Shown: positions 56,757 to 58,207 of the stretch, piece by piece
Position numbering within the stretch: position 1 is the stretch's first letter
Layout: each line of letters starts with the position of its first letter
Source of the DNA: Pseudooceanicola marinus
GTDB lineage: Bacteria > Pseudomonadota > Alphaproteobacteria > Rhodobacterales > Rhodobacteraceae
Assembly: GCF_002786295.1 (NCBI RefSeq)
Contig: NZ_PGTC01000024.1
Coordinates: forward strand, 62,001-126,000
Direction: 5' to 3'
DNA: 64,000 bases
The notes under the pieces: generated by a model
What the model was told of the DNA's origin: nothing
Seen by the model: the letters and a program-made list of their open reading frames with translations, nothing else
The model's database searches: none
Program-made: the position numbers and the translations under genes

Positions 56757-57401
56757 ATGCAACGTACCCATATCCCTGGCATTCTTGCCATGGCCGCGAT
56801 CGTCGTGGCCTCCAATATCCTGGTTCAGTTCCTGATCCTCGACGGCCTCCTGACCTGGGGTGCCTTCACCTATCCCTTCGCCTTTCTCGTCACCGACGTG
56901 ATGAACCGCCTCTACGGCCCGGCCGCCGCGCGGCGGGTGATCCTGGCCGGTTTCATCGCCGGAATCCTCTGTTCCCTGATCGGCACGCAGATCATGCTGC
57001 AGGGCGACGGCTACACCTACGCCGCCGTGGCGCTGCGCGTGGCCGTGGGCTCGGCCCTGGCCTTCCTGGTGGCGCAACTGGTCGACGTGGCCGTCTTCGA
57101 CCGCCTGCGCCAGGGCAACTGGTGGCGCGCGCCTCTGGTCAGCTCGATCATCGGATCTGCCCTGGACACCACCATCTTCTTCACCGTCGGCTTCGCGCAG
57201 GTCATCACGATCTTCGGTGCGAACGCCGATGCGGAGATCTCCTGGGCCTGGGAAAGCGTGCCCTTCATGACCATCGGCCCCGCCGTGCCGCTGTGGGTCT
57301 CTCTGGCCGTGGCCGACTGGGGGGTGAAACTGGCGCTGGTGCTGGTCGCCCTGCTGCCTTTCCGGGCGCTGACGGGCAAAAAATCCGCAAGCCCTGCATA
57401 A
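56757..57401 (+). CDS. yhhQ: Queuosine precursor transporter (YhhQ/VUT family)
   Basis: A 214-residue membrane protein with five to six TM helices. TYPFAFLVTDVMNRLYGPAAAR and ALDTTIFFTVGFAQV are the family signatures. It imports preQ0/preQ1 for queuosine in tRNA. I looked for a preQ1 riboswitch in the 72-bp gap before it and did not find one. A candidate regulatory RNA lies just downstream. Confidence 0.92.
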   Translation: MQRTHIPGILAMAAIVVASNILVQFLILDGLLTWGAFTYPFAFLVTDVMNRLYGPAAARRVILAGFIAGILCSLIGTQIMLQGDGYTYAAVALRVAVGSALAFLVAQLVDVAVFDRLRQGNWWRAPLVSSIIGSALDTTIFFTVGFAQVITIFGANADAEISWAWESVPFMTIGPAVPLWVSLAVADWGVKLALVLVALLPFRALTGKKSASPA

Positions 57402-57471
57402 AGTGTTTTGTTGTTAACGAGTTCCGTGCCACCCTTTCTGTATCGGAAACAAGCAGAAAGGAGGTGCTCTA

Positions 57472-57528
57472 GTGTCTATTGAGGTATTGGAGAAAGGGTT
57501 CGGAACAGTCTGGAGGGTGAACGTCTGA
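57472..57528 (+). CDS. 18-residue small ORF with extended Shine-Dalgarno
   Basis: GTG 57472 reads MSIEVLEKGFGTVWRVNV then TGA. AGAAAGGAGGTG upstream matches the 16S rRNA 3' end over 12 nt, far longer than usual, and the GGAGG-to-start spacing is 7 nt. This argues that the ORF is translated, or that the site serves as a regulatory ribosome-binding site. Homologues were not checked. Confidence 0.5.
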   Translation: MSIEVLEKGFGTVWRVNV

Positions 57529-57593
57529 GGCAGCCCTCGGGCGTTGAAACTCCGGGTTGGTTCGCCTAACCGAACCACCTCCTGATCTCGAGA

Positions 57594-57624
57594 GGGCCGT
57601 TCCTGCCGAAGGAGCGGCCCTTTT
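57594..57624 (+). terminator. Terminator after the small ORF
   Basis: GGGCCGTTCC (57594-57603) with GGAGCGGCCC (57611-57620), 10 bp with one G-U, loop TGCCGAA, then TTTT. Strong Rho-independent form. Confidence 0.93.
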
Positions 57625-57644
57625 CCGTTGCGGTCAGGCGCGGG

Positions 57645-57713: not shown

Positions 57714-57793
57714 GAGAGGGGCGCCGGTTTGAGCTTCGGCCGGATCGTGCCATATGAAAGCGGGGCGCCATCGGGGCGCGAAGAGGTTTGGCA

Positions 57794-58207
57794 ATGCTGC
57801 GGATCACGGATCAGATCGCGATTGAGGACTGGGAGCTGGTGGAGCAATTCATCCGCGCCTCGGGTCCCGGCGGCCAGAACGTGAACAAGGTCTCCACCGC
57901 AGTCGAGCTGCGTTTCGAGGCGGAGCGGTCGCCCAATCTGCCCGAGCCGGTCAAACGTCGGCTGCGGCGGCTGGCCGGGCGGCGTTGGACCAAGGACGGC
58001 GCGGTGGTGATCCAGGTCTCGGAGGAGCGCAGCCAGGCCCGCAACCGCGACTTGGCGCGGGAACGGCTGGCGGAGCTGGTGCGCAAAGCGACGGTGGTGC
58101 CGAAACGCCGGATCCCGACGAAGGTGTCGAAGAACCAAAAGCGCAAGCGCGTGGAGGCGAAGAAGGCGCGGAGCGAGGTGAAGGAAGGGAGGGGGTGGGA
58201 GAGGTGA
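57794..58207 (+). CDS. arfB: Alternative ribosome-rescue factor ArfB (peptidyl-tRNA hydrolase)
   Basis: A 137-residue YaeJ/ArfB protein. The GGQ catalytic motif is SGPGGQNVNKVSTAV near residue 28. The C-terminal basic tail (KRRIPTKVSKNQKRKRV...) enters the mRNA channel of stalled ribosomes. It releases peptides from ribosomes without stop codons. ATG 57794; an upstream TTG is not needed. Confidence 0.94.
   Translation: MLRITDQIAIEDWELVEQFIRASGPGGQNVNKVSTAVELRFEAERSPNLPEPVKRRLRRLAGRRWTKDGAVVIQVSEERSQARNRDLARERLAELVRKATVVPKRRIPTKVSKNQKRKRVEAKKARSEVKEGRGWER

Follow-up and report, generated by a model that had tools for sequence, protein, structure and literature searches.

The full-length mRNAs of type I toxins such as hok are silenced by long-range pairing. 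The element described here resembles them in having a full-length RNA that is predicted to be silent and differs from them in having no selected peptide. Two RNAs of S. meliloti also invite comparison. In the DUF1127 uORF leader the ribosome-binding site (RBS) has been proposed to monitor ribosome availability; like our element, for which both traits are predicted, this leader has an RBS that pairs with other RNA segments and a translated short frame; in the leader the second half of the frame could be scrambled (PMC12218461). Unlike our element, which has no evident controlled gene, the leader as described there precedes a gene and is subject to premature termination. The rnTrpL/peTrpL RNA is likewise small, with a translated 14-codon frame, but this frame is leaderless and the RNA is attenuator-derived and lies in the trpE leader, according to the text devoted to it (PMC10117765).

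By homology the element belongs with the Caulobacter sRNA CC2171 (RF01867), which has no stated function in the Rfam rows. Within the portions of the literature that were searched, only two papers could be recognised as treating it. In the Rfam 15 paper, as far as the text concerned goes, RF01867 is mentioned solely as one entry of a table that lists R-scape-revised structures (PMC11701678). An sRNA screen in Mesorhizobium huakuii lists a member of RF01867 as MH_s33, and the relevant part of that report gives RNA-seq products for 34 of 35 non-riboswitch candidates with MH_s6 as the sole exception, so that MH_s33 was presumably seen in RNA-seq (PMC5596092).

In the window, the whole 64,000-nucleotide stretch of DNA that was analysed, the element lies between queT (56757-57401) and arfB (TTG at 57788 or ATG at 57794), all three on the + strand; the two gene names are labels of the earlier note, taken over as given. 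An Rfam scan of the window matched RF01867 at 57448-57620 with 38.4 bits, under the gathering score of 75 bits. When the genome of the window was searched, the match extended over the full length of the model (positions 1-159, E 2.4e-6) and was the sole strong one (next best 0.016). At E<=0.01, 53 of 61 family genomes hold a homologue, none above the gathering score, and two of 14 control genomes gave a match (Caulobacter, over the cut-off, and Deinobacterium). RF01867 is thus wider than its curated threshold. Among 19 supplied loci, five passed the gathering score, from Brevundimonas, Methylobacterium, Bosea, a Pseudolabrys MAG and genome G128.

The window branch shares with CC2171 the 5' Shine-Dalgarno (SD)/start block GAAAGGAGGUGAUCC-NUGUC, an existence as a gene of its own, a terminator, and a long-range helix from the early codons to a segment before the terminator. 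It differs in scoring 38 bits, in its 18-codon frame and in a downstream anti-SD predicted to hide the SD. We regard the homology as firm, and on sequence grounds the element is a divergent branch of an alphaproteobacterial group that includes CC2171. The RF01867 family would carry a frame with a selected start and stop and an unselected peptide.

The SD/start-block pattern with at most two mismatches was found in 38 of 60 relatives, in 195 of the 246 genomes from the family and in 91 of the 385 from the class. These are upper figures, as some matches arise by chance or belong to ordinary genes whose SD is alike. When at most one mismatch was allowed, 44 of the 249 phylum genomes matched, and by a hand count these are 44 of 79 class members versus none of 170 others. 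We take the family to be Rhodobacteraceae because the same type with the same neighbour occurs in named contigs including Defluviimonas, Gemmobacter and Salipiger. Among the matches listed, named contigs elsewhere are of Bradyrhizobium, Bosea, Methylobacterium, Brevundimonas, Phenylobacterium and Acetobacteraceae. Three further matches (L070, L125, L181) come from MAGs whose contigs bear the labels Gemmatimonadetes, Nitrospinota and Acidobacteriaceae and may reflect mis-binning, transfer or chance; the one at L181 opens a long ORF. One class member (G047) has two elements (L241 and L242), one of a 24-codon CC2171-like type and the other of an 18-codon MSHGSA type. At seven loci (L043, L046, L065, L108, L134, L143, L254) an identical or nearly identical SD block precedes proteins of 55-59 aa with signal-peptide-like starts, and these look like ordinary small genes. 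In four element-like loci (L264, L265, L266, L269) the SD block reads GGAAGG where the others have GGAGG.

The 12-nt SD AGAAAGGAGGTG, which the earlier note had described as complementary to the 3' end of 16S rRNA, is present at 57455-57466 and occurs once in the assembly. The other segments named there likewise have the letters given for them: CACCCTTTCTG at 57430-57440, CACCTCCT at 57576-57583, an 18-codon ORF at 57472-57528 (GTG start, TGA stop) and a terminator at 57594-57624. The assembly lacks a 16S 3' end and the 16S tail was taken from family relatives, where it was recovered in four of the 19 genomes searched and read GGATCACCTCCTTTCT in all four. With this tail the SD is predicted to form a duplex of -23.0 kcal/mol, compared with a mean of -7.0 and a best of -15.9 for 91 mechanically called ORFs of >=200 aa in the window. 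As a conserved feature, the extended 16S pairing is weakened: GGAGGTG is followed by A, G or C in the family, and G366, G570, G571 and G529, with 16S tails TTTCT, differ in the first base of the element.

Upstream of the SD we predict a promoter at 57408-57435 on the + strand, with -35 TTGTTG (57408-57413), a 16-nt spacer and -10 CACCCT (57430-57435), from which the RNA is expected to start near 57442; the RF01867 model match itself starts at 57448. The pattern TTGNNN-N16..18-NANNNT stands upstream in 78 of 79 family loci at varying distance, a loose pattern counted without a shuffled control, and the TTG columns are conserved in the family alignment. These data bear on the proposal of two competing anti-SD segments. 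The downstream one was borne out by family-wide pairing (93.5% of cells in 67 sequences). The upstream one, CACCCTTTCTG, shares bases with the predicted -10 box. Perfect complementarity to the SD within the stretch from -45 to -6 runs to no more than 3-6 nt in 78 of the 79 family loci, the window's included, and to 7 in one. Because of this overlap and non-conservation, segment 57430-57440 is probably promoter DNA outside the RNA. A toggle between the upstream and the downstream anti-SD, as the earlier note had it, was rejected on the same grounds.

The suggestion of a structured RNA held up. Region 57421-57630 folds at -100.2, with z -6.4 and none of 200 shuffles as low. Averaging the predicted pairing over 81 family sequences brought out four helices: P1, which pairs the SD (5' strand 57459-57466) with CACCUCC (3' strand 57576-57583); P2, a start-codon hairpin at 57468-57491 (57468-57476 with 57483-57491); P5, a stop-codon hairpin at 57522-57543 (57522-57530 with 57535-57543); and the intrinsic terminator at 57592-57624 (-25.4 kcal/mol). 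A helix of 57506-57513 with 57552-57559 is also visible. A fifth helix used in the comparison, P1', pairs the P2 loop (57479-57482) with a segment immediately 5' of the terminator (57588-57591), in the window extendable to 57485 with 57585. P1', which the Rfam model contains as its long-range helix, crosses P1, and the two form either a pseudoknot or alternatives.

For covariation we aligned the window with 66 others of the 81 distinct family sequences, leaving out four odd ones (L015, L151, L189, L203), four by hand (L080, L161, L194, L204) and six more. Across this alignment, in which helix columns were set by hand and those of P1' chosen after viewing it, 92.7% of 2544 cells in the five helices are paired. 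Cells changed on both sides number 232, versus 71 +/- 10.6 in shuffled alignments and 17-73 when the helices are slid, so the relatives do show the covariation that the earlier note had proposed as a check. The terminator stem (99.6% of cells paired, seven of eight pairs changed on both sides), P5 (82.3%, seven of nine) and P1' (94.0%, four of four) contribute such changes. P2 is paired in 95.9% of cells with one of nine pairs changed on both sides. P1 has none of eight so changed: its partner varies from C to U and from A to G opposite an unchanging SD, one-sided variation only, and it lacks compensatory proof because the SD does not change. In a covariation scan, the top two column pairs are not base pairs, the next are terminator and P5 pairs, and the P1' pair 57481:57589 is sixth (GC 60, AT 16, GT 5). 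On this comparative evidence a conserved fold of the element is firm.

P1' was followed beyond the family by permutation. Over 182 elements its strands pair at -12.9 kcal/mol within and -8.9 kcal/mol between elements, a difference reached in none of 5000 permutations, though related elements account for part of it. Taken group by group, an EQPL type (z -4.4, n=19) and a mixed 'other' set (z -10.7, n=80) give a clear signal, the Rhodobacteraceae-type family gives a weak one (13 of 2000 permutations, n=73; 47 of 5000 when refined, n=64, eight family loci being unparsed), and the Bradyrhizobium type gives none (884 of 2000, n=10). In pairing energy the P2 5' strand hardly beats shuffles in the family (mean z -0.35, n=79) but does so among the CC2171-like elements (mean z -1.42, n=64). 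Seven loci with ORFs of more than 45 codons, which have the look of ordinary genes, were left out of the fold, neighbour and P1' tests, and L049, L065, L070, L125 and L181 also out of the P1' permutations.

Masking of the SD by the downstream segment at 57576-57583 (CACCTCCT, CACCUCCU) agrees with model folds of most family loci. In family relatives the partner CACCUCC lies about 110 nt downstream, and in about 90% of 79 family loci the SD is predicted to be hidden (>0.8) by a partner at least 84 nt away. For comparison, 183 mechanically called ORFs of >=120 aa that have GGAGG were drawn from these loci and from the window, and 8.7% of them are masked. The proportion over 0.8 is 42% of 19 loci in the EQPL type; in the Bradyrhizobium type the SD is masked in all 10 loci by a near partner; and in the mixed set, which holds the CC2171 type, it is 19% of 90 loci versus 26% of controls. 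Masking as a class-wide trait was rejected, the mixed set not exceeding its controls. We consider a self-locking SD probable, on model folds, in the Rhodobacteraceae-type family. In this branch the completed transcript is predicted to have its SD covered, which speaks against the suggested ribosome titration by that form.

A model of the nascent RNA places this locking late in transcription. The SD is predicted to be open to about 115-125 nt, 2-10% open afterwards and closed from 135 nt; its mean openness before closure is 0.49-0.72, and the element of the window stays at 0.77-0.96 until the transcript reaches 115 nt past GAAAGG. The start codon is mostly paired already in this model (about 13% open).

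We lean towards reading the element as an independent RNA gene in which the passage of a ribosome matters rather than the peptide, and which is translatable only until its 3' part has been made. Such a gene would carry its own promoter and terminator. During transcription the SD would lie open, and a ribosome could load and run the short frame. When CACCUCC and the pre-terminator segment emerge, P1 would cover the SD and P1' would fasten the loop of the start hairpin to the 3' end, in either of the arrangements named above. The finished RNA would be silent in the family branch, and ribosome transit within the brief open period, not the peptide, would determine how the RNA folds or what becomes of it. 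The element is thereby a candidate reporter of ribosome availability or of transcription-translation coupling. Should the signal be ribosome transit, it would be a translation sensor that stands alone, with no gene downstream. Against a translated frame counts a report from ribosome profiling that Caulobacter ncRNA regions are untranslated, in passages that do not name CC2171 (Schrader et al., PMC4117421). Possible, if doubtful, is a broader reading, in which throughout the class ribosome passage would set the finished fold of a stand-alone sensor of free ribosomes with an output in trans, to which the family would have added the SD:anti-SD lock and the crossing helix.

The same folds can be read differently. 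CACCUCC, freed by a ribosome on the element's own SD, could block the SDs of other mRNAs, making the element a trans-acting sRNA. Access to the anti-SD does rise in the model from 0.05 to 0.25 once SD and start are occupied, and sRNAs with anti-SD loops, SmelA075 and RS0680a, are described from alphaproteobacteria in the text concerned (PMC3927594). The gain in access is modest, however, and by eye the downstream segment was not seen in the listed loci of other groups, and we hold this reading to be unlikely.

The short frame itself is conserved, as the earlier note had required of it. Among 82 family loci, a set mostly picked by ORF length, 80 have a frame of 18 codons and two a frame of 20. 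We repeated the stop test on queT-neighbour loci with any ORF length and found a stop at codon 19 in 75 of 77 (TGA 34, TAG 25, TAA 16, TGG 0) and two codons later in the other two (Fisher p 4e-9 for 72 distinct ORFs, uncorrected for relatedness). On a tree built from upstream DNA, the second and third bases of the stop codon changed 21 and 17 times, in a count restricted to 18-codon ORFs from which TGG is excluded by construction. The first base of the start codon, over 237 loci, is G in 181, A in 52, T in four and C in none; this set keeps a few ordinary genes, and the search patterns specified G at this base, though they tolerated mismatches. Within codons 2-18, changes are spread evenly over codon positions 1, 2 and 3 (223/231/230 in the family), and no third-position excess was found in the family or in the 23-, 24- and 25-codon sets of other groups (n=16, 16 and 23, picked by length). 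Conservation of start and stop without selection on the peptide is firm in these comparisons. Because start and stop are kept while changes by codon position are flat, translation of the frame seems to be selected and the peptide not; on a translated frame of the kind that a dual-function sRNA has, the comparisons give codon-level conservation. Three family loci without queT (L016, L208, L213, family f1) have 26-codon frames and are another type. Elements of the Bradyrhizobium type (L089, L095, L099, L100, L112, L122, L124, L138, L153, L154, L249) have a 14-codon frame with DNA nearly invariant from codon 5, ending in TAG (6), TGA (3) or TAA (2).

Kept start and stop codons and a very strong SD would also suit a small mRNA with a micropeptide as its product and RNA structure serving ordinary translational control. 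A precedent is SEP1 of S. meliloti, a 23-aa protein of pI 4.18 that tops translation efficiency among 54 Ribo-seq candidates in the data described (PMC10117765). Element forms in family f174 (Rhizobiaceae, at a guess) have 23 codons; the computed pI at 11 such loci is 5.4-6.5 in eight of one genus and 4.4-5.9 in three of another. The micropeptide is nevertheless improbable, given the flat codon-position counts and a frame length that ranges between groups from 14 to 35 codons.

Conversely, an unselected peptide and strong covariation are what would be expected of a plain noncoding sRNA whose frame is an accident of structure. This account fits poorly with a start whose first base is never C and with a stop that never became TGG despite its many second- and third-base changes, and we give it little credence. 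The preferred reading, in which ribosome passage is what counts, is consistent with both the kept frame and the free peptide.

The gene's independence is supported by neighbours that vary and a terminator stem that stays constant. queT accompanies 74 and arfB 70 of the 79 family loci, where the family type required 18 codons and CC2171-type loci were counted under the mixed set. With three unclassified family loci set apart, 126 loci remain; queT is found at none of these and arfB at two, both divergent, and no shared neighbour family recurs in more than three of 36 sampled loci of other groups, so no downstream gene is conserved across groups as in a ribosome-dependent attenuator. From sequence, a link to ribosome rescue through arfB thus appears to be synteny within one family. 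Over 81 sequences in a folding model, the terminator stem forms with probability 0.997, 0.997 and 0.996 with the SD free, the SD occupied and a ribosome on the stop, and in these thermodynamic terms does not depend on the ribosome. A cis attenuator or leader for arfB, suggested earlier and in keeping with the family synteny, is very improbable because the modelled terminator forms regardless of the SD and neighbours differ elsewhere, arfB itself being divergent where it recurs. Both of these recurrences (L093, L136) are in contigs labelled Hyphomonadaceae, with arfB upstream of an element of another type.
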